This document shows positions 2,597 to 61,078 of a stretch of 61,390 bases of DNA, in pieces. The stretch is taken from assembly GCA_008802785.1 (NCBI GenBank), contig VUYT01000056.1:1-61390 (forward strand), in the 5' to 3' direction. Position numbers and translations under genes: made by a program. The notes under the pieces are model-generated. The model saw nothing but the letters and a program-made list of their open reading frames with translations, made no database searches and had not been told where the DNA came from. Numbering within the stretch: the stretch's first letter is position 1; the number at the start of each line of letters is the position of its first letter. This stretch comes from Symmetrospora coprosmae (Eukaryota; Basidiomycota; Cystobasidiomycetes; Symmetrosporaceae).

Positions 2597-4822
2597 ATGG
2601 ACCCTCGGATAGCGTCTGGCGGGTCTGGCGCAGCTTCGACATCTACAGGAGGAGCAGGAGGGAACGCGCGATCCTCTGCCGCCAACCTCCTCTTCGCCAT
2701 CCCGCTCCTCCTGCTCGCTTTTCCCTTGCTCGGCTTATCGCGGCGGCTCTTCCGTGTAAAGACAGCGGCAGGCCTCGGGCTCTGCGGCGCGCTGGCAGCA
2801 TGGGCAATCACGGTCGCAGTGATAGGGACGCGCTATCTGCACGATCTCGCGATATGGGGCATCACCGCCGCCGGCTTCCTGCTGGGTGCCGGCCTCGGAG
2901 CGACCGTCGCCTGGCCCGTCGGCCTCGCCGCCTTGTCCGTGGTTTCCGGGTTCGCACTCGGGCTGTCCATCCTCCTCATGGGCGAGGACGGCCTGATCGA
3001 TAGCGTCGGCGGGCGATGGGGCTTCATCGGCGCCCTCGGGGCTGTGGGCCTCGCTGTCCTGGCGTTCTTGCCTGCGAGGTGGAGACATCGCGTCGAGGTG
3101 CGCCAACCGTCGGCTTGGCTATTTCGGGTCTTCAGCTGAATCTGCCCTGCGATTTCTCCATGCGCGTCGCTCCTACAGCTCGTACAAGCCTCCTTCGTCG
3201 GAGCATGGCTGTTCAGCGTCGCGATTGACCTCTTCATCCACGGATCCCAAGGCGTCTCCCTGGGCCTGAGATGCATCCTCGATGGCAACTCCAACCACCG
3301 CCGGTTCCTCGCGTACACTCCCAAGCTGTCCACGCGGCTGCTCATGGCTCTCTCATGGATCATGACGTGCGTCCGGGCTCGGCATGAGGTCGCTGAATTG
3401 ACTGCCTCACGGCTCAAAGATAGCAGCGGCTGATCCGTCCGCTCGCTTGGCCTACTTGTATACAGACCCATCGCCGCGTACGCACAGAACCGCGTGTTCC
3501 CGACATCTCAGCCATCGCCCGCATCGCAAACTGCGTCCTTCGTCGAAGAGGAGGAAGAAGTAGCTGGCTCCTTGGACAATCCCGGCGCGCGCCTAGAGAA
3601 GGGGCACGATGATGCCATGTCCCTGACGAGCGAGAAGTACAATGACCCTGCGCAGTCAGAGTCAGGCACAGGTCCGCACGATGCACGGCAGCAGACGGTC
3701 TCGCAGCTCCCGATGGTCCCCGTGCAGCCCGACCACCTTCAGCAGCAGCAGCAACAGCAGCAGTACCAGGGCCACTCGCGCGCGCGCAGCCACGACGCTT
3801 TGAATGGTTCGCTGCACAACGCTCCGCGTCGGCACTCGCGCACGCGCTCCGGCAGCTCCATCCCCCGCGACGCGAGAAGGCACTCTGGATCCTCCTCGTC
3901 GCCGTACCACGCGCACGGGCAGCACAGTCCGTCGTACCGCGCCTCCTCGGCGCTGGCGCTCCCGTCAATGTCGCAATTGTTCCTCACTGTCACCCCAGGA
4001 CCGGGAGAGTCGACGCTGTCCCTCCCGCCGAACGCGCGCGACAACAGCCGGCGGAACAGCAGGATCGGGTACTCGAGCCCCGCGGCGAGCCTGGATGCGC
4101 ACTCGGAGGCCGGGGAGCCGCCGCGGCGCAGTCGCGAGTCCAGCCTCCCGGGTCCGTCCGTGGGAACAGTGGGGATGGCAGAGGCAGGGCAGGATCGCGC
4201 TGACACGCCGCAGCCGTCGTCGTCAGAGTACCCCTCGTCCTCCTCGTCCGACCACTCCAGGAGCAGCTCGCAATACTCCAGCGCAAGCGCTTCGCAGCGC
4301 GCCGGCCCGGTCACGCCGTTCGAGGTCGGCTCGAGCTCAGAGGGCGAGGAGGGGAACGCGGATGGGCACACCAGCGAACCGCAGACCTCTCCATTCGTCG
4401 TCGCAAACACCGAGCAGACAGCGCCGACCATGTTGGTAGTGCCGACAGGGGAGAAGGAGCAGCACCGCAATGGCACGCCCGCTCTCGCTCCCCGCGTCAT
4501 CTACACTTCTGCCTCGAGCTCCGAAGCACTCTCGAGCGCACGGGAACAGCTGCACCTTGTCTCAGCTGCATTTGTGCAGGGCCGCATCGTCGGCACCGTC
4601 GCAGCACCGAACGGGACAGCGAGCGTGAGCGTCCGGTACAGTGTCGACGGCTGGACGACACACGCGGACGTCAACGCAGACGCACCCACCGGCGCCGATG
4701 GACGCTGGGCATTCAGCCTTCCGGGCGAAAAGCCGCTGGCACTCTGCCTGTGCGCGAGAGTGCCAGACGGCCAGGAGATCTGGGACAGTAACGGCGGAAG
4801 CAACTACAGCTTGTCGCCTTAG
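2597..4822 (+). CDS. DUF4203 (TM7S3/TM198-like) membrane protein with C-terminal CBM21-like domain
   Basis: Three exons (2597-3097, 3179-3366, 3466-4822) close in frame to give 681 aa. The first ~235 residues hold six or seven hydrophobic spans, including AIPLLLLAFPLLGL, TAAGFLLGAGLGATV and GALGAVGLAVLAFL. They also hold the motif GVSLGLRCILDGN, which is shared with the DUF4203 protein at the other end of this window. About 350 residues of Ser/Gln-rich, probably cytosolic, disordered sequence follow. The last ~90 residues look like a type-21 carbohydrate-binding module: VSVRYSVDGWTT, a central WAFSLPG, and a closing WDSNGGSNY that matches the family's WDNNxGxNY signature. CBM21 modules occur in glycogen-targeting subunits of protein phosphatase 1 and in some amylases, so glycogen or glucan tethering is possible. 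The function of DUF4203 proteins is not established. The membrane domain is clear, and the CBM21 assignment rests on the motif pattern. Confidence 0.75.
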
Positions 4823-5087: not shown

Positions 5088-8000
5088 CTACAGCTCGGGC
5101 TTAGCAGCCTGCGACGAGCCAGGCGTGTCGGCAGCCTCAGCCGCTTCGTAGCATACGGCCGGTGTTTGCACTTTGAAGAGGTACGTGCATTTCTCACTGA
5201 CAGGATCATAAGGATTCTGCGTCAGCTGATTCTGCGTAAGGGTAAGGGTAGGGCAAGCAGGCCCACTCACGGCTCTGCAACGGAGAGGATGGCGTTAGAG
5301 GTCCCGCAGACGAGCTCGACGTATGCCGAGCGGTCAGGGCCGTTCCAGCAGCGCTGACCCTTGTCGTAGATCTGGCCACTGTAAAAGTCCAGGCTGCCCT
5401 TCTCGGCGTTCGGGTGCCACGAAGCGAATTTGCTGCAATTGAGCAGATTCTCCGTCAGCGATGTACCCGTCACTGCCGCCCGCATCGGCGACAAGGTGTA
5501 CTCACCCGAGCGTAGTCGTCAAGTGCCCCCTGGTGCTCTTCTGGATGACCTTGTCAAACCAGCAAAGCGAGTACGTATACTCGCCCGCCTCCTTGTCGAC
5601 GCACTGTCCTTCGAGCTTCTTCCACTCCCACTCGACGCCCCAGTCCTTTTCGAGCGCGGATCGCTCGCGGAGGATGGCGCTCTCCTTGTCCGCTACGGCG
5701 GATGAGGCCTCCTGGTGATTCGCGCGAGCTTTGGCGATATCCGGCCTGTCGGCCTGCTCGACCGCCCGGCGTGAGATGACACCGTAATTGGCGAGGAGGT
5801 CGAGCAGCTGCACGCGCAAGCTATCGTACTTCGGGCGCAGCGAGTCCGGGAGGTACTCCTCAATCCGGAAGAGCAGGTTTGCCGTCTCCTGGCCAGGTCC
5901 GGCATCGAGCTCAGCCATGAGGCCGAGGATGTCCTCGCCTTCAAAGGTGCGCAGGTAGTCATCACCCAGGTCGTCAAAGTCGACCTCGACGGGCTGCACC
6001 TCGGCCTTGGACTCGCCAGCCGCGGTCGCTGCTTGATCATTGTCTCTGTCCGGGCCGCCTTCGGCGATAGGATACCCGTTCTTCCTCGACCAGTCGTCAA
6101 AAGCCCGCACGGCGCCGAGGACAGCCATGTCCTGGTAGTTTGGGTTGAACGACTTTTTTAGATCTGCCATCAAAGCCTGCAGCGATCCGACCTGCTCTTG
6201 GAGGTACTCGCGGTGCTTACGCAGCGAGGCAAGTGAGGACTGGTACTCCTCTACGCGCTTGAAAAGCTTGCTCTTGCGCTTGCGCTCAATCTCGCCAGCC
6301 TCGCTGCGCTCGACCTTGTCCAGGATGACTTTCAAGCCGCTTTCCTTCTCGCGGAGTCCAACAAGCTCTGCCTCGATCTTGGCGATGCTTTTCTCGATCT
6401 TGCGCTTCTCCTTCAGACCAGCTGCCGACCAGTCCTTCCTGATCTTGCCCCCAACACGCTGGATCCGGGCCTCCTCATCGATCTTCGCGCGGTACTCCTT
6501 GTTGACTGCCGCGCAGCGATTCGGGCACTGCACCTTGCCGTCTGTCTCGTCCGAGCCATCACAGCACTCTGGGTCACAGATGCCGTCATTGATGCGGGAG
6601 ACGAGCACACACGCTGAGATGTGGCCCTTGTTCTGGCAGCGCGCCATTCCCGCTCGAGGGCAGGTTGGGTCCTCCAGCTGGGCCAGGCCGTGCGTCACGC
6701 CAGCGATAGCGTTCTGGACACGGCACGCCTTGGCCTCGTCAAAATCCAGATGCAGCTGCCAGTCTCGGGTAATTGGTAGCCCAGCGCTCCTGACAACCAG
6801 TCGAGACGCAGCCTGTCCGTTCTTCTTCGAGCCAGCATTAGAGGCCACTCCGTCCGTCCACTCGAAGTCTAGTCCGTGTGTGTGTCCTGCAACCTTGATG
6901 CAGGTGGGCTTGCTGCCCAGACCGAGCACTACGATCTCCTCCACGCTGACCGGGGCAATCTTCCGTGTGAAGGCGTTGTCTGCATTGTAGGTCTCGGCGA
7001 TGGCTCGGAAGTCGTCGTTGCCGCCGCGGTAAGCCTTGACAGCGTCGGTCGAGCTGAGGATGAGGCTCTTCTTGGCGGTACCAGACAGGTCAAACTTGCG
7101 CCAGACCATCTCGCCCTGCTGAAAGTCGTATGAGTCTCCATCGTCCAGGTAGATGTCGCCATGCGCCTTTGCGCCGCTCTTGTCCAGAGCGACGACAAGC
7201 GTGATCGGGTCGCGCCACATGAGCGGCGCAGACCGTCGGATGATGTCCCGTCGCGTGAGGATAGAGCCACCGTGATGAAAGAGGGGCAGCTGCGACAGCT
7301 CGCCTGGCACCGTTACGCGTGATCGACTAGCTGATGAGGATGCGCGGGTCCAGACAGTGTGGTCGAAGTAGTTGTAGTATGGCTGCGAGCAATGCAGACG
7401 CAAAAGTAAGCTCAAATCGCTACTGGCACAAATGGCACTATGGAGCCAGATTCACCTCATCGTCAGCCAGGTAGACCGAAGCGGTCGTGGCTCCCTCCTC
7501 GACGACAGGTTTGACGAGCAGTCCCGAGTCGCCGACGAAGAACTGATCATCGACAGCAAAGCCCGCGGCATCGTTCGGGAAGGCAACGTAGTGTGGTCTG
7601 ACAATAGGCGTCCCGGACAAGCTTGCGTGGAAGAAGGCCGTGTACCAAGCGGGGAGGAGCGAGTAGCGGAGACGAATGGCGTCGCGCATGTACGATCGAA
7701 TTGGGTCGTCAAAGAGGTACGGCTCGCGTCGCTTGGTATCGATGTGCGCATGGGCGCGGAAGAAGGGGTGGAAAGCTCCATTCTGGTACCATCGCACCAT
7801 CATCTCATTGCTGGGATTGCCGAAAAAGCCGCCAACGTCGGCTGAATGGCAAGACACGGTCGATGCAGAGATATCAGCCGTTCTGTTGATAGGTAGCACA
7901 CCTTGGTGCTGATCGCTCCTCACCTCCGTTGAACGACATGCCAGCTATCGAGTTGCTCAGGACCATGGGCACCGCTACAGCCAGATGCTCCCAGGTGCCG

Positions 8001-10136
8001 AGGTTGTCGCCCGTCCAGATGGCACCGTATCGCTGCGATCCAGCAAAGAACGAGCGCGAAAGCACGAAAGGTCGCCTGGGCTTTTCCTCGCGCTCAATCA
8101 GAGCTTGAGCGGTAAGGTTGTGCTGTTGAGTAGATGGGCGCTGGTCAGCCTCCTCCTTCCGCTCTGTTGGGCTGAGCATAATTAGCTCACGTAGATCATG
8201 CCGTTGATATTGTGCACATCTCGGTGCTCCCAGCCTCCGTGGTGCACAACGTCCTTGGGCGCTGTGATCTCCGGGCCATTGAAGACCGAAGGCTCGTTCA
8301 TGTCGTTCCAGACGAAGAGGTTCCTCCTGGAACCGACAAACTTGTCGAACTTGAAGAGGCTGATCCACCAGTCGAACGACTTGGGGTTGAAGTAATCGGT
8401 CCACGAGGACGAGCCCGTCCAGCACCACCCTTCGAACTCGGAGCCGTCCGCCCGCTTGTACAGGATGTCCAGATCTTGCGCCTCCTTGTACACGTATAGC
8501 GATGGAACGCGCTTGATGTGCGGGTCGACAATTGCAACCAGCTGTCGACCGACGTCTGCAAGCTTGTCTTGCATCTTTTCCGGCTTTGGGAAGTTGGCTC
8601 GGTCCCAGACGAAGTACTTGTGCTGTTAAGATGTGACCGCGATAAGCATCAGGCGGCCCTTGACACTGCCTACCGATTCAGTCACAAGGGAGCGCACCTC
8701 TTCGGCATACTCAATGTCAAGCCAGATGACATCCATTGGGATATCATACTCGTCGAACTTCTCGCTGACAGTCTGCACATCCTCCTGGTTGAGGTAATTC
8801 CATCGGCACTGGTGGTGTCCGATGGCAAACATCTGCGGCAAGGCCGTCATGCCCGTCAACTTGCCGTACGTCTCGAAGATGTCCGAGTTGCTAGGTCCGA
8901 GGAAGATGACGAGGTCGAGCACGCCAGACTCGGCCATCCAATGCGTTTGCGTCGACTTGGACGACTTGGTGATGTCGATCCAGTTCTCGGATGCGGTGAG
9001 CGAGAAGAGCGCGACGGTGCTTCCGGGACGGTGGGCGTGCATGAAGGGGATCGCGCCGTAGAGTGCCATCTCCGAATTGGCTTCGTACTCGAAGACATCC
9101 AGGTTCCATAGGCGATATGGATCCGTGAAGGCGTTGTCGCCGCCCCTGCGGATGGGGCAGCAGGGACACATGAGCGAGTGTGCCAAGCTGACCATCCATA
9201 GAGTAGCAATGCGGCTCACCGGGTAGTCCGGAGGGACAGCGGGCTTGCATGCTCAGGGATTCCGAAGACGTGCTCGTAGTTCGGGAACGTCACGTCAAAA
9301 GAGTATGCTTCCGGGCCTGCAGGTCGGGATGAGCGATGTGTAGTCAGCTGACAGAGTTGACCGTACTCCGATCCCATCGATGGCGACTTACCCTTTGGCT
9401 TGGAGTCCTTGTGCCCGTTGAAAGTCTCCTCCCATGCGCCGTCATCGTTCATGAATGGCTGGAATGTGGCCCGAGCCTTCTGGAGAGCCTTGTCGACAGC
9501 GCCTTCGGGCTGTTCCTGCGAGTCCACGGCTCCTCCGCCAATCTCCTTAACGCGGAAGTGCTCCATGTGGAACAGGTTCTGCTCGTTGAAGCTGACATGG
9601 ACCTCGCCGTCACGGAGGAACTCGACCTTGAACGGGCTGAAAGTGATGCGCGCCTGCTGCTCGTGCTTGGCATGGTTTCCGCCCGAGCTGGTATAGCTCC
9701 ACGAAAGTGTCGCATCCGTTCCCGCTGCACCCTGCGCAAATGCGACTCCCTCTGCGGCCGTTGCGTACCCAGGCTCGCTCTGCAAGGCCCAGCGCGCCGT
9801 CTCATTGTACCGCTGCCGGAGCCCGTTCAGCTCGTCGATCTTGAGCCTGGGCAGCCCGGCATTCGGCGCGGCCGTAACGCCGAGCGTAAGGCCGAAGCGC
9901 GCCTCTGGCCAGATCTGCGATGCGAGCTCGGCCGTGAAGAGGCCTGAGGTAGGGTCGAAGACGGCTGATGCGGGGTCGACGGAATACGGGGACGATGAGG
10001 AGGAGGAAGGAAGGTCGCGTAGGCGTCTGCAGAAGCCGCTCTGTGCACAAGTCTTAAAGTCGCCGCGCTTGAGTCCCCTGACATAGCTAGGATGCAGTGC
10101 TAGAAGTGCGACGATGAGGGTGAGCAGTGACGGCAT
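5088..10136 (-). CDS. Glucosidase II alpha-beta fusion (GH31 catalytic subunit joined to PRKCSH/MRH subunit)
   Basis: Nine exons on the minus strand: 10136-9392, 9316-9220, 9145-8698, 8622-8191, 8122-7924, 7841-7456, 7382-5506, 5432-5271 and 5196-5088. Phase closes throughout and gives 1484 aa. Glucosidase II removes the inner glucoses from N-glycans in the ER. Residues 1-983 are the alpha subunit: a signal peptide starting MPSLLTLIVALLAL, the KRGDFKTCAQSGFCRR N-terminus, the GH31 nucleophile Asp in WNDMNEPSVF, the acid/base Asp in WTGDN, and an end at DWQLHLDF. The same frame, inside one 1.9-kb exon, continues into the beta subunit. That part has an LDLa module RINDGICDPECCDGSDE, a long coiled coil, an acidic segment and the MRH domain. 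The MRH mannose-binding Gln, Arg, Glu and Tyr are present (VIQK, CWNGPDRS, AEPEKCTY). The usual first LDLa module is degenerate, and the C-terminus is KPEL rather than HDEL. An alternative start lies at 10205. Confidence 0.88.
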
Positions 10137-15066: not shown

Positions 15067-17168
15067 ATGGACATTGAGTGCGTCCGTCGAGGTTGCGGCC
15101 ATCCCAGAGGAGCGCCATCTGACGCTGTCCTGTCCCGTCCGTGCTCGCAGCCCGTCCACCTCCTCCTCGTCGCGGTTGACGCGCCTGGACGCCAGTTACG
15201 ACCCATTGCAGCCTCTGCAGGACAACTTTGTCATTGAGAAGGTCAAGAATGCTGCTGCGGGGACAACCGCATTCAGAAACCAGTATGCCTCAATCTACTT
15301 TTCCAGGCTCATGGCATTGAAGAAGCGCGTCAGGGAGAATGCAGAACGAAAGTGGAAAGATGTCGGTGCGTGCGGGCTCTCGGGCAGGCGAGAGCGGACA
15401 ACGCGCTTGATACGAGACTGATAGGCGCCTGTCGCTTCTCGCTGCTTTGCTATCTTCCGGCTCCTCCCTCTTACGGCAACTCGCGCGCGCCTGAATGGCT
15501 TTCTCATTGCACGACAGCCCGCAAGAACCCGACCTCGAGCAAGTCACAACGAGTTCTCGATATCAAGCCGGGGTCCCTCTGCTTCGTCGTCGGGACGGTA
15601 TACCTCGAGATGCGGTTGAAGCCGAACATCCTGGAAGACATCGGTCGGGAGGTGGGTCTCTCGCCTATACAACCAGCGATCTGTCGAGCTGTAGGCAGAC
15701 TCACGAAACCCCTCCCACATCCGCTCCTCCCGCTCACAGCAACACATTGCAGTGCCGCCGCCACGGCAAAAATTCCTGTCTGACGACGATGAATTCATGC
15801 TCGAAGACGAGTCTGGGCGCGTGCGCCTCGTAGGACAGGTCATCGAGGACCGCAAATTCCCTCTTGTGACGGGTGGGCTCCCTTCCCTGTTCGAAACGCC
15901 CACACATCATTCCTAGCTTACCCTGCTCTTTTTCTCCTTCGCAGGCGTCATTGCCGCCGTCCTGGGCGCAGAGAACCAGTCTGGAGACTTCGAGGTCGTC
16001 GACATGTGCTTTGCAGGCTTGCCGCCGCAGCCGAGCTCGTCGCGCGCGTCTTCCGCGAAGGGCAAAGGGGGCGCGCGAATCCCAGATGACGAGGCGGAGA
16101 ATGACGACGACGAGACGGGCGGAACGGCGAATGGGGCAGGCGCAGACACGGGCTCGGACCCGTACGTGGCGATCCTCAGCGGGCTGGAGCTAGGGACAAA
16201 CGAGCAGGCGTCGGATTACCGGACGGGCCTGCTGGCTGAATGGCTATTGGGGGAAGTGGGCAGCGAAGAAGTGCGCCTTTTCCCAGTCTGATCACCATCC
16301 CAGGTGGTCGAGCGGCCGACGAGCTTTTCTCCGTGTCTACAGGAGCGCAAACAAGCATCGCAGATCGTCCGCGTCGTCCTGGCTGGCAACAGCATGAAGC
16401 AGCCGATCAAGACCGCATCCGTCGACACGGCGGGCAGCAGCCTCGGGGCTGGCACGGGCGACAAAAAGCCGAAAAAAGTGTACGGATACGACTCGTCGAC
16501 GTACTCTGCGGCGCCGACGGCGCAGCTCGACAATTTCCTCGCAGAGGTCCTCGAGACGGTCGACGTCGACCTCATGTGTGGCGCTCTGGACCCTGTGGGA
16601 ATCACGCTGCCTCAACAAGCTCTGCACGAATCGCTCCTCCCGACTGCTGGCAAGTTCGAGGGGTTCAAGCGGACCACCAACCCGTGCTGGTTCGAGGTGG
16701 CGGGGAGGAGGTGCGCCCGAACCCTCGCAGCCGAGATGTGCCATCACGGTAATCGCTGACTCGGCAGTCTACACGTCGCCCCGTTCCCGCTGGTGCAGCT
16801 TCCTAGGCACATCCGGACAGAACGTGGACGACATCTTCAAGTACCTCGAGTCAGACTCGCGGCTGACGATGGCGTGCGCCTCGCTCGAATGGTCCCATAT
16901 GGCGCCCACGGCGCCCGACACGCTCTTCTGCTACCCGTTCCAGGACCGAGACCCGTTCATCCTGACGCGCACCCCCGAGGTCTACTTCGTCGGCAACCAG
17001 CCCGTCTACGAGAGCCGCGTCGTTGAGAGCGAGCGCGACAATGGCGAGGGCGCGGGCGCCAGTAAGGTTAGGTGCAGGGTGGTCCTCGTGCCCCGCTTCG
17101 CGCAAACGGGGGAAGTCGTGCTGCTGAACTGCAGGACTCTCGAGACCAAGGTCGTCCGATTCGAGTGA
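15067..17168 (+). CDS. POL31: DNA polymerase delta subunit 2 (B-subunit family)
   Basis: Exons: in-frame coding through 15365, then 15518-15651, 15740-15872, 15945-16270, 16343-16710 and 16799-17168. These close in phase to a stop at 17168. Recognisable segments are ASYDPLQPL, QYASIYFSRL, RVLDIKPG, MLEDESGRVRLVG (the OB-fold), GVIAAVLG, DVDLMCGALDP and GTSGQNVDDI in the inactive calcineurin-like phosphoesterase domain, and HMAPTAPDTL near the end. The protein is the structural second subunit of replicative polymerase delta in the nucleus. The 5' end is uncertain: the first coding block has no in-frame ATG, so a short upstream exon must exist. The start given is the nearest ATG, which would need an intron that I could not phase. 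A Gly/Asp-rich insert of about 35 residues lies between the OB and phosphoesterase parts. Confidence 0.88.
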
Positions 17169-20354: not shown

Positions 20355-21119
20355 ATGGCAGCGTCCTCATCTTCAGCATCATCCAGTGCGAATGTCGCGT
20401 CGTCGTCGTCGTCCTCGTCCTCGTCGTCTGTGCCCATCGCGCTCCAGCATGACCCCCGGCTGGAGCGGCCGAGCATCTGTGGGCCTGACGACGTCGAGCC
20501 GCCGTACCCAATCTACATGAGGGGCCCAGTGCAGCACGGCTTCAAGAGGGGTAGCAAGGATCTCGGGTGTCCGACGGGTGGGCTTGTCTGTGCTTGATCG
20601 TCGTGTCGGGCTAAGCTGGACGCTGAGCGCCATTGCCCGAACGCAGCCAACCTCCCCGAGGACGAGGTCGAGCGCTTCGCAGACAGCTTGGAAACGGGCG
20701 TCCACTACGGCTATGCGCGCGTCCAGCTGGGGCCAGAAGAGAGCGAAAGCGCGTCGAGCGCCGTCCTGCCAATGGTCATGAGCATAGGCTGGAATCCGTA
20801 CTACAAGAACGAGAAGCGGACGGCGGTGAGTCACATCTGGCAGTGACGCGCTGATGGCACTAGCCGCGATCTGACGCTCGCCCATCTCGCCTTATCCATT
20901 CTGCAGGAAGTGCACATCTTGCACCACTTCAGCGAGGACTTCTACGGCAGGGAGATGCGGATAGCCATGCTCGGCTTCATCCGGCCCGAATACAACTACA
21001 CGTCCCTTGAAAGCCTTATCGACGACATAGAGACGGACAAGCGCGTGTCAAAGAACAGCTTGGATCGGCCAGGGTACACAAAGTACCTGCAGGATCCCTT
21101 CTTCGACTGGGAGCGGTAG
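20355..21119 (+). CDS. FMN1: Riboflavin kinase
   Basis: Three exons (20355-20577, 20647-20825, 20907-21119) give 204 aa. The enzyme phosphorylates riboflavin to FMN with ATP. After a Ser-rich N-terminus (~25 residues) come the family signatures [20 protein letters not shown] (with the PTAN ATP/Mg site split by intron 1), [27 protein letters not shown] with the catalytic Glu region, DFYG, and [18 protein letters not shown] at the C-terminus. The length is normal for a stand-alone fungal riboflavin kinase. The ATG is in good context, and the frame is supported to the stop. Confidence 0.93.
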
Positions 21120-25852: not shown

Positions 25853-28023
25853 TTAGACGAATCGGTCCACGAGTCGCTGCCAGAAGTTCAACGGCCCGCG
25901 CGCCTCGGCCTTTGCCTTCCAGTAGGCCTCGTCTTCGTCAATCTCCTGCTTGCCGGAGAAGAGATCAATCTCGGCGAGCGGGATGACCTTTGTATGGTGA
26001 CGGATCTTGTAGTATGCCCAGATGGCGACGAAGGCGACAAAGCCGATGTCTGCGAGACGACAGAGGCCGAGCCGATCGTCAGCCGTTGTATCCGCAAAGC
26101 AAGACAGAGCGGAGCGAGAAGACGGGCAACCCACAGTTGGTCATGAAGGTCGACAGCGTGAAGGACGTGACGAAAGAGTCCCAACCCTTGAAGAAGCAGA
26201 CAATGCCGGTGACGATGAGCGCGACCCATGAGCCGGCAGCGCCAAAGGGCGCCTTGTACGGCACGAGCGCGCGATCGACACCCTGAACCCTGAAAGCCTT
26301 GACGAAGCGGATGTGGCAGTATGCAATGGACCTGTGGGAACAGATTGGTCAATTCGTGAAACACGGACACGCGCGGAGGCCAGAAGCACGTACATCCACG
26401 TAAGACCGCCAAACAGGGACACCAGGTTGACAAAGTAGCCGAAGACCTGCAGGCAAGCGAGTGCGGAGAATCAGAAATTACGCCCAACAAGCTGAGGCAG
26501 GTCCCGGGATAGTCACTCACCGTGGCACCGTCACTGTCGACTCGAAGATAAGCGAGACCGCAGAAGAGCCAGGTGACGAGCAGGCACCAGTACGGGCAGC
26601 CCCACTTGTTGACTTTGAGCAAGAAGCGGGGCGCCTTGTCCTCCTCTGCGAGTGCGTAGAGCGTGCGGGACGCAATGTAGAGATCCGAGTTGGCCGCCGA
26701 GAGGACGAAGATGAGAATGGCGGCGTTGAGAATGGACGGGAGGACCTTGATGCCCATGCCTGTGACGGCGACGACGAAAGGCGAGGCAGCCGCCGACGTT
26801 CCGGCGCGGTTCGCGACGAAGAGGTTCTGGTCGTTCGAGGCGACGAGCAGCGAGATGCAGAAGACGCCCCCGACGTAGAAGACGAGGATGCGCCAGAAGG
26901 TCTTGCGGATGGCCGATGGAATGTTGCGTCGAGGGTTTGCGCACTCGCCGACGGTGACTCCGATGAGCTCCGTACCCATGTAGGCTGTCGACGCGTACAT
27001 ATCAGCCTTTTGCCGCCATGCTCACCAGCGGGGAACGGTGCTCACCGAAGAGAGCGTTGACGAAGACGGCCCAAACACCGAGGAAAGCGCCCTTGCTGCC
27101 TCCGACCTTGTACGATGCGAATGGACCGCTGTCGCCGCCCCAGTATCGGAACCAGATGACATCGCCCTGCGGGTTTGCGCCGCTCGTAAGGCAGATGGAC
27201 ATGATGAGGAGGCCGACAAGGGTGACGACCTTGATCAAGCTGAGCCAAAACTCGAATCTGGCATCGTGTATGTCAGCCACCAGGGTTCGAAGTGTCAATG
27301 TGACATCCTGCGCAACTCACTCTCCGAAGAACTTGATGCCGAGGAAGTTGATGAGAAGGATGGCAACGATGAAGATGGTGAGCCAGACTGCGACGTGCAC
27401 TGCCCGTCCGCCCGCCCAGTAGCGTAGGATGGTTGAGCCAGCGACGATGTTGTTAGGTCTGTTCCGAGTGGGTATACTCAAGTCAGCGTCATGTCAGGGA
27501 ATGTCCCAGAGGTTCCTGCGGTCACTCACGTAACGATCAAGTATTTAAAGAGGTAGTTGTAGCCGGTAGCCTGGGTGCGAAGTGTCGTGGAAGCAGATCA
27601 GCGCTGACCTCTAAAATCCAAGAGGGTCCGCCGCCGACTCACAGCACCGAGAGCCGGGTCCACGAAACGCGAGGCGTATCCCGAGAAACCTTTGCGGTTC
27701 GGGATCCACGTTGCCATTTCTCCGAGAGCGCACATGACGAGGTAGCAGATCATGCCCATGATGCTGTAACCGAGGAGGAGACCCAGCGGCCCTCCTCGCG
27801 CGAGCGCCGTTCCAGAGCCGATGATCAAACCAGTCCCCACGGCGCCTCCGATGGCAATCATGGAGATCTGGCGCGAGTTGAGACCCCTGTGCAGCGTCTC
27901 GTCCTTTGCCTGGGGCGGGGAGCCGTCAAAGGCCTTTTCGACGACGTCGGCGCCCTTCTGGTGCTCAGCGTCGTAGTCGCCTGCCTTGCCATCCTTGAGC
28001 TCCGGGGATGGAGAAGGGTGCAT
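25853..28023 (-). CDS. Amino-acid permease of the fungal YAT/APC family
   Basis: Eight exons: 28023-27643, 27570-27530, 27458-27321, 27257-27046, 26984-26521, 26446-26394, 26331-26135 and 26049-25853. Phase closes and gives 560 aa. This is a plasma-membrane proton/amino-acid symporter. About 65 polar residues are followed by GLNSRQISMIAIGGAVGTGL (TM1, with the conserved substrate-binding glycine stretch). Then come twelve predicted spans, including GYSIMGMICYLVMCALGEMA, the motif GTELIGVTVGECANPRRNIP, SRTLYALAEEDKAP, VPYKAPFGA and FMTNYIGFVAF. The C-terminus ends with a charged helix (DEDEAYWKAKAEARG). The substrate range cannot be read from sequence. Confidence 0.93.
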
Positions 28024-55556: not shown

Positions 55557-56633
55557 TCAACGGAACCGCCGCTGTATCTGCTGTATCGCAAGCACTGCCA
55601 CAACCCCCGACGCGGCTCCCCCAGCCGCCGAGAGCCAGTGCAAAGCCCCGCTCGGCTCGACGGCGCTCTTGCCTCTGTACACTGGGCATTTCTGCCTTCG
55701 CTCTTCTGCCTTTTCAGCTTGCGCCTCCCGCTCAGTGCCTGCTGCTGTGCCTTCACCACTTCCTCCCGCCGCTAGCCTCCACCAGAAAGCCGGGTTCAGG
55801 CCCTGGACGACCCAGTACGGGCACAGCAGACGCCGGTACCACCGTCCGCTGGCGCTCGTAAACGTCTTTGCGACGAGTCCTTCCTCCCAGCCAGCCAGGA
55901 TAGCATCCTGCTGCTCCGGCGTCATCTCGGAGAGCTCGTCGAGCGTCCAGCTGTCCGTCACGCGCACCATCCACTCCATGCGCTTCTTGACAGTCTCTGC
56001 ATCTTTTCCCGGGGCCATCTTGCGCAGCTCCTTGCGCAGCGTGCCAATGTGCTCGATCGCCTCGCCCACGTTGGCCGGCAGGCCCGCCTCGATCTGCCGC
56101 CGGATCCGGTTGGCCAGCCGGGGACCCTTGCCATTCGTAGAGATCATGACCTGCAGAGGGCCGCGCCGAATCACAGAGCCAAAGTAAAAGTCGCATAGAG
56201 GCGGAACGTCCGCGACATTGATGTTGAATCGTCGCTTCTTGGCCAGGGAATAGATGTGCTTGCTCAGTTCCGGGTCGTCTAGCGCCGTCAGGACCATGTC
56301 CCATTCCTGTGCGAGCGGGAACCATAGCCGTGGACCATTCAGCTCATCGACGCCATATTCACATGTGCGTATGCGTCAGTCAGCGCACCTCGTCGTTGAT
56401 GTCGCCATCCTCAAAATCCCGGTCCCGCCAGTCGATGCTCCACTTGTCGCGTTCGTCCACGACACGATACCGCGCCTCATCCCCCAGCCCACTGTCCGGA
56501 CACACGAGGGTCACCTTGGCGTCTGTTGGCAGTGTGCTGCGCAGCCGGTCCGCTGCTACGTTGCCGCCGCCGACAATGAGGACGCGCCGGTTCTTGAGCT
56601 GCCAGGCGAGGAGCAGGGAAGCGCCCGTTTCGA
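55557..56633 (-). CDS. MET8: Siroheme synthase: precorrin-2 dehydrogenase / ferrochelatase (Met8-like)
   Basis: Exons 56633-56389 and 56342-55557 are secure; a short upstream exon ending in phase 1 is missing from the model. The protein converts precorrin-2 to sirohydrochlorin with NAD and inserts iron, making siroheme for sulfite reductase. Conserved blocks are ETGASLLLAWQLKNRRVLIVGGGNVAADRLR (NAD site), FPLAQEWDMVLTALDDPELS, NINVADVPPLCDFYFGSVI (with the Asp used in both reactions), GPLQVMISTNGKGPRLANRI and a helical C-terminal domain. The last ~90 residues extend past the usual end and contain a weakly hydrophobic segment (GGAASGVVAVLAI), possibly a membrane tail. The ATG was not found in phase upstream. 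Confidence 0.9.
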
Positions 56634-57337: not shown

Positions 57338-60300
57338 TCACCCGTAGATGCGCACCCCTCCATCGGCACCTGCGCTAGCGACAAACGGCAGCGTCGGGTG
57401 ATACGCGACCTGGAGGACGCCTTCGTTGCCTTTGCTGCGGTGGGACGTACTGATCTCCTGGATGCACGCACGCGTCTGGAGCAGGTCCCAGAACCGGACC
57501 GTGCAGTCGTGCGACGCAGACGCGATCGTCAGGCCCGACGGGTCCACGTCGAGCGACGTCACACCGTCGCTGTGCCCCAGAATGCTGTGAGTGCACGCCC
57601 CGCTCTTGAGGTCAAACAGCCGGATGTAGTTGTTCTCGTGCGCCGTGATGAGCATGGGAAGCGTCGGGTGCGATACGATCCGGTTGATCTGCGTTGCGGG
57701 CGTGCCGTCTGCACACATCCAAGACCCCGAGCAATCGCACCTTGTGAAGTCAGCCTGCTGGGTCAATAGGACAAGGCAAGCTGAGGGATCGGCACGCACC
57801 GTAGCCCTCGCTGCTTTGCAGCGTCATGACGAGCTTGCCAGTCTCCGTGTCAAAGATGCGGACAATGGCATCCGTGTATGCGACCGCAAGCTTGGTCATG
57901 TCGGTTTGGCAGAGGGCCAGGCTCGTGGGTATTGCGCGGCCTTTGCCTTTTCCAGAACCGGAGTTCGCCTCGTCGCTCATCTGTCCGTCCGTTCCCTGAG
58001 CAGTCCAGGAGAGCTTGAGGCTGCTCTGGCTGTTACCGGGCGACACGTCCCAGATCTTGACCGTCCCATCCGCCGATGCGCTCGCTAGCACTTCGGTATC
58101 CGGCGAGCTGCCGCCCAGCAGGCAGACATCCCACACGCCGTCCGTGTGCCCCTCGAGCCGGCCGAGGTTGAACGACGCGTCGAACGGCGCATACGTGTCG
58201 CGATTATCCCCGCGAGACGGCAAGGACCAGATCTGCACTGTGCTGTCGAGCGACGCAGAGTAGATGCGCTCGTTGGCCCCCGAGATGCACAGCGATGTGA
58301 TGGGCGCAGTGTGCCCGCGATACGTCAGGGACGGCTCGGAGTCGGGCAGATGCTGGGCTCTCGCACTGGAGGAAGTGCAGCCCGGGATCGTCTCATCAGC
58401 CAGGACGTCTCCTCGGCCTGAAGAAGGGAACAGGTCCTCACTTGGCAGCCACGCTCTGCAGATTCAGCCGCCACAGCTTCACGGTGCAATCATCGCCGCC
58501 CGTGACTAGCGACATGTCAGTTGGGCGCTCCGTCTTGTCGAAAGCTAGGCAGCGCGCGGCGTCAAGATGGCTACGCGCACCAGTTGGCAAAAAGAGGCAT
58601 ACGTATCAGCTTGCGATCGCTCGAACCGGCATGGCGTGTCCATACGCACGCTCGCAACGTCCTGCGCGGCTTCCAGCTCTTGTGCTCGTCCGTGACAACA
58701 GGCTGGGCCTGCGCATTGTTGCCAGCCAGGACGGCTGTGTCGCTCCTGTGACGCGGCGCCTGTGCCGCAGACGTTGCCGCAGCCGCAGCCGGGGCCGCCT
58801 CTCTGCCCTGCGCCTTGTCCTGCAGCTCTTTGAGCGTGACTGTTGTGCCCGCGGCCGCACCATCGCCCTCGCGCTGCAGCTGCGCTCCGCCAGCAGCACC
58901 GGTGTTGGCATACGCCGGCTCGAGGCTCTGCCCGGCCTTCTTCAGGGCCTTTTTCCATTCCTCGCTGTTCTCTGGCCGGAATATGGCAGTCAGCCGACTC
59001 GCTGCATCGGCGCTGTCGTCCACACCTCCAGGCGGACCACTGGCGCTCGGACTGCTTGCTAGCGAGTTCGTCGGAGGCCCAGCGGGCACCGGAGAGGGAG
59101 CGTCGGGCTGCAGCTGCGCCTGAGGGTGCGGAGCGCGGAAAACGTCCTCCGATAGCGACAGGGCCGCTGCGCTCGGTCCGGACTTTGCTCGAATGGACGC
59201 GGCAATCGCCGTTGGTATCGGGGCCGCGCTACCGCCTGTTACTGCTGAGGCAACGCCGCCTGCACCCGTGCCGGCGGCTTGGCCGGGTCCTGCCGGCGAT
59301 TGCTGCTGGACGTCTGCGGACGCATTGGCCGTATGCAGCGCTTCGACCACGCTCTTACCCTCCGGACCGCCCGTAGCTTTCGCATCAAGAGGCACGACGA
59401 TGTTCGCTGCGTCGGTGCTCCCGCTCCCAGCAGCAGCAGCAGCAGCAGCTGCTGCTGCCGCCGCCGCCTTTGCCTTCTCCTTCTCGAGCTGCAGCTGCTG
59501 CTGCTCCTGCGCAATGAGCGTCGATGGTGGGACCGCTGCGCCCGGGCCGGGCGCGACCTCCTTTAGCTCCTTGCGGGGGCGGCCGAGGCCAGCGGCCGTC
59601 CTGTCCGGGAGCGGATTGAGGGCGGTCGCGCTCGTGAGGTACGTAATCTCCTGCAGGCACTGCTTGAGGTACTCGCGGGAGCGGGCCCGCGAGCGCGGAT
59701 CGCGGCCTACGCCGGCAGAGGCGTTGAAGGTCGAGCCGAACCCTGCGGCGCCGAGCGCAGAGCCAGAGCCGCCAGCGCCAACCAATCCGCTGGGTGCACC
59801 AGCGCTCACCTGGATGGCCGCTGCACTGGGCGGGAGTGACGTGATGCTGCCTGCCATTCCGTTTGGCATGGAGACGAGGGAGGAGTTGGAGTTGGCGCGG
59901 TGGATGGCAGATCCGCCTGTCGCAGGCGGCTGCAGGTTGCTGGTGTCTGGATGGAGCAGAAGCAGAAGGAGATGCGGGAGCAACAGGGCCGTCAGTCGAC
60001 AGTCGAGGGTCTGGAAGCGCCTGCACCTCCCGGGCACGCAGCAGCAAATCACACACTGTTGGCCGCATCCTCTGCACCGTGAGGCGCCGGACTAGATCTG
60101 CCACTGCTGCCTCCCTGAGCGTTGATGGCCTTCCGCTTGCCCTCGGGAATGGCAGACGCGGTTCCGGCGCCTGTTGCCTTCTTCTGAGGCAGCTCCTTGG
60201 CATCTCTGCCGTCTTTCTCCTTGTCCTTGTCAGCGAGCTTTTCCTGATCCTTGCCGGTTTGTGCAGACGTGGCATCGTCCTTGTCCTTGTCCTTGTCCTT

Positions 60301-61078
60301 GCCCTTGTCCTGCTCCTTGTCCGCCTTTGCGCCAGTACTCGCGCCCGCGCCTGCACGCGCCAGAGCAGCGGCCGTCGCCTCCTTCTCCTTTTCCTTGAGG
60401 GCAACGGCGTGCTGCGCTGCCTGAGTCTGCGCATTCGTCAAGTACTTGTTGCGCTCCTGGCGCAGGGCGTACTCGAGCATCTTTACGCGGCGCATGAGGT
60501 CCGTCTTTAGGTTCTCGGTCCCCCTTCGCTCGCCCTCGAGCAGCGCGATGCGGGCCTGTCAGTTCACCGATGCACGAACGCAGAGAGAGGAAGGGGGACG
60601 TGCAGGGATGGATCCAGAGGATAATGGACGCGTGTGAGTGAGCATCAGCAACTCTGTGCGAGCATGAATGCGAAGCAGGCGCCCGGCCTGGCCTGCACAG
60701 CGGGGACTGACTGACCCGCATCTCGCCTCGCTCAATCTCCCATTCGTTCCGTTCGCGCTCGTAGCGCCTCCATTCGGTCTGGAGGTAGTGCAGGACGCTG
60801 CTGAGGTTCATTGGGGGTGGCAGTGTGCCTGCTCCTGCTGGTGCTGCTGGGTTCTGCTGTCCCTGTCCCTGTCCGGCGTGCTGCTGCTGCTGCTGCTGCC
60901 CCTGCTGGCCTTGGGCGAGATAGCCCTGCCCTTGCCCCTGCTGCTGGTTGTGCTGCTGCATCTGGACGCTGTCGGACTGCTGATACTGCTGCTGGTATCC
61001 TCCTTGTTGGTGCTGCTGCTGCTGCTGTTGATGCTGCATCGACATGGACAGCGAGGCCGGAGGTGTCCACGGCAGCAT
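57338..61078 (-). CDS. Striatin (STRIPAK scaffold)
   Basis: Six exons: 61078-60716, 60555-60053, 59939-58650, 58570-58442, 58365-57800 and 57708-57338. Phase closes and gives 1073 aa. Striatin is the PP2A B''' subunit that scaffolds the STRIPAK complex, which controls hyphal fusion, septation and sexual development in fungi. The N-terminus is poly-Gln-rich. The conserved striatin helix follows (LSSVLHYLQTEWRRYERERN, ARIALLEGERRGTENLK, DLMRRVKMLEYALRQERNKY). Then comes a long Ala/Ser/Lys/Asp-rich linker with a DKDKDK run. The C-terminal WD40 propeller has VTGGDDCTVKLWRL, YRGHTAPITSLCIS, DGTVKIWDV, DGTPATQINRIVSHPTLPML, GHSDGVTSLDVDPSGL and a final blade ending GGVRIYG. The donor of exon 2 was chosen among three overlapping GT sites by phase. 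Confidence 0.93.

Follow-up and report, generated by a model that had tools for sequence, protein, structure and literature searches.

Introduction

Does the gene described here encode both subunits of glucosidase II as one polypeptide, or have two genes been brought together in the assembly or by the way in which their transcripts are processed? Glucosidase II, which checks newly synthesized glycoproteins, is normally put together from two separate proteins. These are described as a 110-kDa GH31 alpha subunit and a 60-kDa beta subunit that is flexible, extended, and equipped with an MRH domain (PMC4742823). Beta is reported to bind alpha through its N-terminal part (G2B), to recognize N-glycans through the MRH domain, to carry the retention signal, and to be dispensable for in vitro activity on a small substrate (PMC6583763). 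According to titles cited in PMC4742823 and a review statement, MRH binding aids natural trimming. No natural alpha-beta fusion of glucosidase II is named in the open-access literature that we searched; sequence databases may hold unremarked ones.

The window, i.e., the whole stretch of DNA analyzed, comprises 61,390 nucleotides. Its short introns and gene content indicate that the host is probably a fungus, and the basidiomycete host given in the preliminary description is plausible.

Results

Gene Model

The glucosidase II alpha-beta gene lies on the minus strand, from the start codon at 10136 to the stop codon at 5088 of our model, in agreement with the span proposed earlier. The exon model was assembled by hand from GT-AG sites, and its initial version comprised 1492 aa without an internal stop. 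Alignment with the PDB entry 5dkx showed that this version had eight extra residues where exons 3 and 4 meet, and a codon-bias scan put the end of exon 3 at 8698; because of these two results, the donor of intron 3 was set at 8697, 24 nt upstream of 8673. The corrected model has nine exons and eight introns (all GT-AG, 68–82 nt), and joining the exons leaves a frame of 1484 codons free of stops, giving a product of 165.8 kDa (~166 kDa) including the signal peptide (Table 1). The Pfam and PDB searches were run on the 1492-aa model or on pieces of it, the numbering of which past residue 437 is 8 above that of the corrected model. Pfam revealed in one chain the GH31 domains, followed by PRKCSH-like, PRKCSH_1, and PRKCSH/MRH. 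Inspection of intron 8 by eye (5197–5270, minus strand) showed a short run of CCCTACCCTTACCCTTA as well as several AG sites that could serve as alternatives.

Table 1. Features of the glucosidase II alpha-beta gene, with positions in the window and the basis of each assignment.
Feature	Positions	Strand	Basis
Exon 1: start codon, signal-peptide-like N-terminus (MPSLLTLIVALLALHPSYVRG), alpha N-terminal domain	9392..10136	-	Model; 5dkx alignment from residue 22; signal peptide by eye
Exon 2, alpha	9220..9316	-	Model and 5dkx alignment
Exon 3, alpha, donor GTGCGC at 8697	8698..9145	-	Model, 5dkx alignment, codon-bias scan
Exon 4, alpha TIM barrel, D537 in WNDMNEP	8191..8622	-	Model, Pfam, 5dkx alignment
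Exon 5, alpha barrel, D613 in WTGDN	7924..8122	-	Model and 5dkx alignment
Exon 6, end of alpha barrel and proximal C-terminal domain	7456..7841	-	Model, Pfam, 5dkx alignment
Exon 7 (1877 nt): alpha distal C-terminal domain, junction, LDLa2, coiled coil, start of MRH	5506..7382	-	Model, Pfam, splice and codon scans
Presumed end of alpha half, DWQLHLDF (aa 976–983)	6741..6764	-	Model; alpha C-terminus homology by recall only
Linker DEAKACRVQNAIAGVTHGLAQLEDP (aa 984–1008, ~25 aa, 75 nt)	6666..6740	-	Codon score; model coordinates
Beta LDLa module 2, begins TCPRAGMARCQNKGHI, contains NDGICDPECCDGSDE (end approximate)	6513..6665	-	PRKCSH-like profile; PDB beta chains
Beta coiled coil and middle region (limits approximate)	5610..6512	-	Helices in low-confidence model; homology
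Intron 7, splits MRH domain	5433..5505	-	Model
Exon 8, MRH domain with RCWNGPDRS	5271..5432	-	Model, Pfam, PDB alignment
Exon 9: end of MRH domain, C-terminus AAKPEL, stop	5088..5196	-	Model and PDB alignment

Alpha Half

The best PDB match of the alpha half was 5dkx (phmmer E 6.9e-267; residues 22–961 of the 1492-aa model, to 953 after correction), which we take to be the Chaetomium thermophilum glucosidase II alpha entry of the PMC4742823 paper. Among the best 60 of the 71 matched PDB sequences, 5dkx and the neutral alpha-glucosidase AB chains (at least 609 residues) scored 891–591 bits, followed by maltase-glucoamylase as the next GH31 match (370 bits) and by 5djw, named alpha-glucosidase II (298 bits). 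Judged by this similarity, the alpha half is closest to glucosidase II rather than to other GH31 enzymes. The GH31 barrel and C-terminal domains were found in it, with PF13802, PF01055, and PF21365 above the Pfam cut-off; DUF5110 scored 26.0 bits on the full chain, against a cut-off of 27, and 27.2 on exon 7. Both D537 and D613, the latter presumably the acid/base of GH31, align with 5dkx, and the entry 5dkz has Ala in the D537 column, as expected of a nucleophile mutant.

The alpha half had been proposed to end at DWQLHLDF (residue 983, base 6741), a position that matches the corrected model; we assume this motif to be the usual alpha C-terminus, after mammalian GANAB. The last 30 alpha residues (954–983) lie beyond the end of the 5dkx alignment. 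When the C-terminal piece of alpha was searched against the PDB, it matched 26 sequences (TALE, Hax3, TOD, TAL effector); these matches are repeat-driven, no stretch passes alone, and they were attributed to chance.

Beta Half

The PRKCSH-like profile matched residues 1013–1110 (1021–1118 in the 1492-aa model) over positions 74–170 of its 176. On the spliced chain, PRKCSH-like, PRKCSH_1, and PRKCSH (MRH) were all above the cut-off (39.7 bits for PF07915); on exon 7 alone, the end of which falls inside the MRH domain, PRKCSH_1 and PRKCSH were just below it. Both beta-half introns are of the GT-AG type, and splicing them out leaves the MRH homology in frame. In the alignment with 2lvx, presumably the S. 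pombe MRH entry, the MRH residues Q, R, E, and Y, assumed here to be the sugar-binding four, are kept together with the Trp of CWNGP, a motif that occurs at one site (5353) in the six frames of the window, within this gene. The catalytic Asp residues of GH31 and the four mannose-binding residues of the MRH domain, both reported as intact in the preliminary description, are present in these alignments. A structure prediction of exon 7 without alignment had a mean pLDDT of 42.3, with long helices (the coiled coil) at the best-predicted part; the model was judged of too low quality for a fold search. A PUL-domain match inside this coiled coil (E 0.0085, below the cut-off) was dismissed as chance.

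Against the PDB beta chains, the beta half gave an E value of 2.1e-35, and the alignment started at their residue 69 or 86, i.e., at LDLa module 2. The similarity to module 1 of the PDB beta (residues 43–73 in 8d43) is only weak and is that of another copy of the LDLa motif. Module 2 alone is represented in the profile and PDB alignments, and an LDLa motif scan of six frames over the whole window found one site (6578), in this gene, and no second. Similarly, tblastn of the beta half matched only this gene within the 61-kb window; on the basis of this search and the motif scan, a second beta copy in the window was rejected.

The chain ends in KPEL (5091–5102, minus strand) and not in HDEL or KDEL, a feature unusual for an ER-retrieved protein that had previously passed without remark.

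Junction

The junction (6740–6666) is situated deep within exon 7 (7382–5506) and contains no stop. Using codon log-odds trained on alpha only, the linker scored +0.20 bits per codon in frame, and the remaining two frames of this strand gave -0.60 and -0.30; the corresponding scores for the beta half were +0.22 vs. -0.67 and -0.65. The linker score is modest, being reached by 6.2% of random open stretches of equal length in the window, and 23% of alpha stretches of linker length score at or below it. The codon-bias scan, which was trained on the fusion CDS itself and is thus not independent, placed the alpha end, the linker, and beta in one segment (5538–7379).

No splice donor matching the weakest used one was found in 7382–6666, and the best GT sites in 6950–6560 score at most 4.7, compared with 5.8–9.9 for the eight used donors. 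In exon 7 as a whole, two donors (6220, 5604) reach the level of those used, and a branch-like motif accompanies one acceptor (6813); no donor-acceptor pair among them would enclose an intron of 40–150 nt. Since only six of the eight real introns of the gene pass the acceptor test, the donor result bears the most weight. With no adequate donor and no such pair, a hidden intron at the junction was rejected.

Reading by eye revealed no signal peptide of beta's own in any frame of 6900–6561 and no LDLa1 in the other two frames of this interval; from this reading and the motif scan, an LDLa1 hidden in another frame was rejected as well. Nothing found in the 75 nt between the presumed alpha end and LDLa2 would supply a signal peptide. 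Within 6400–7000, there were no repeats of at least 12 nt. The frame is thus continuous across the junction, inside one exon and without a stop or, upstream of it in that exon, a donor of the used standard, in line with the earlier claim; a separate upstream signal-peptide exon for beta, which the preliminary description named, together with a one-base assembly error removing the alpha stop, as evidence that would speak against a fusion, was looked for beside the junction and not found.

Neighborhood and Search for Relatives

The convergent neighbor at 3437–4819 (plus strand) carries a C-terminal match to a CBM21 starch/glycogen-binding domain (29.5 bits, cut-off 28.9) after a long low-complexity region. 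Other matches on the plus strand were a DNA polymerase alpha/epsilon subunit B (16740–17060) and a riboflavin kinase (20898–21113). On the minus strand, we found an amino acid permease match (25891–27021), a fragment of sirohaem synthase (55779–56357; Sirohm_synth_C, Sirohm_synth_M, NAD_binding_7), WD40 repeats (57801–58286), and a striatin-family match (60109–60558; 56.1 bits, cut-off 29.4), with a weaker one below the cut-off in 58574–60091; the WD40 repeats and the striatin matches perhaps form one striatin gene (57801–60558). ARAGORN found no tRNA genes in the window. A promoter and terminator scan found nothing, its models being of the bacterial type and saying little about a fungus.

The exon 7 protein had no relative among the prokaryote and viral contigs (109 and 28 pattern stretches, none of them confirmed). 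The exon 4 protein matched two bacterial loci among the prokaryote contigs, at 32 and 29% identity (9 pattern stretches), and had no relative among the viral contigs. The same junction was not found in a relative among the prokaryote and viral contigs.

Discussion

According to our analysis, the locus most likely represents a genuine gene fusion that makes glucosidase II as one chain. At the DNA level, this reading is based on the continuous frame, the domain order, the conserved residues, and the loss of LDLa1 and of the beta signal peptide: the gene is one open frame and would not yield separate alpha and beta polypeptides. To this extent the preliminary interpretation of one alpha-beta frame is upheld, and its functional side is kept conditional below. 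The second LDLa module noticed at that time was likewise confirmed; the consequence, that the signal peptide and LDLa1 of beta have been lost, had not been drawn. As a result of this loss, an independent lumenal beta from this locus is hard to imagine. A single protein is the best reading because a separate beta needs its own signal peptide for entry into the ER.

The gene would be transcribed and translated as one active chain, taken into the ER as a whole by the signal peptide of alpha and retained there by the degenerate KPEL or by other means. The GH31 domain would trim the two inner alpha-1,3-linked glucoses of N-glycans, and the MRH lectin, tethered at the end of the long coiled coil, would bind mannose on the same or a neighboring glycan and present the glycan to the active site. 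The covalent link may take the place of half of the N-terminal region by which beta binds alpha, with LDLa1 lost and LDLa2 kept. In PDB 5f0e, alpha is paired with an 88-residue beta fragment in which LDLa2 occupies residues 40–87, an arrangement consistent with an alpha-binding region to which both LDLa modules belong. We infer that the tether stands in for LDLa1 docking and that the lectin stays on the coiled-coil arm. A fixed 1:1 stoichiometry, the lack of an assembly step, and a built-in glycan sensor would be reasonable expectations for such an enzyme.

Among the alternatives, the one that survives best shares the fused chain with our preferred explanation and overlaps with it: a normal beta gene would exist elsewhere, and the tail would be an extra lectin part derived from a partial beta duplication. 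A partial copy could well be without LDLa1 and HDEL, as the beta half is; however, the beta half extends from LDLa2 to the end of MRH, its open frame, introns, and binding residues are kept, and tblastn with it matched no other gene in the 61-kb window. We consider this redundancy rather unlikely.

An assembly chimera is the main artefact to be weighed, with two genes, in tandem or apart, joined in the contig and the alpha stop and the beta promoter, signal peptide, and LDLa1 deleted. A join by deletion would remove just the N-terminal part of beta that is missing here. Nevertheless, such a join must have preserved the reading frame, for which the chance is one in three, and must have fallen right after the presumed alpha C-terminus and between LDLa1 and LDLa2; the interval 6400–7000 has no internal repeats of at least 12 nt, and codon usage in the linker is coding-like in the right frame, though weakly. 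A chimera therefore seems improbable. Finally, alternative processing that would yield two proteins from this locus, with alpha ended early and beta begun at an internal or upstream alternative start, is very improbable: stops follow soon after the alpha end in the other two frames, so that a frame change could end alpha, but no donor of the used standard lies upstream of the junction in exon 7, a beta begun at the internal Met (MARCQNKG) would stay cytosolic for want of a signal peptide, and the motif scan found no second LDLa-like site in the window.

The single-chain glucosidase II proposed here resembles the GANAB/PRKCSH heterodimer in its GH31 part with WNDMNEP and its beta part with LDLa, coiled coil, and MRH; it differs in being one chain, in the absence of the beta signal peptide and LDLa1, and in KPEL instead of HDEL or KDEL. 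The alpha half aligns with 5dkx, which is the alpha subunit alone with no beta appended. In the available text on FfSpdsSr, a spermidine synthase-saccharopine reductase, a natural basidiomycete fusion of proteins that are elsewhere separate is likewise described; unlike the present gene, FfSpdsSr joins enzymes of different pathways and not subunits of one heterodimer (PMC10051792).

The C-terminus places ER retention in doubt. In the part of PMC7561476 available to us, the KDEL receptor is reported to hold three carboxylates (those of Asp, Glu, and the C-terminus), and KPEL is without the Asp that gives one of them. The KDEL receptor should have a lower affinity for KPEL, and the protein may be slowly secreted or kept in the ER in another way.

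Conclusion

We lean slightly toward the view that a fungal lineage has turned the glucosidase II heterodimer into an obligate single-chain enzyme, in which LDLa1 would be dispensable owing to the tether and HDEL retention perhaps relaxed. Such a form may provide yeast glyco-engineering with glucosidase II in a single gene; in this field, overexpression of the heterodimer worked best according to the available part of one report (PMC3386995). If the fusion is true, the single-chain form separates the roles of beta and would serve as a natural test of docking, lectin sensing, and retention. Should the tethered enzyme be functional in the absence of LDLa1 and HDEL, docking and retrieval would be replaceable, with lectin sensing kept.
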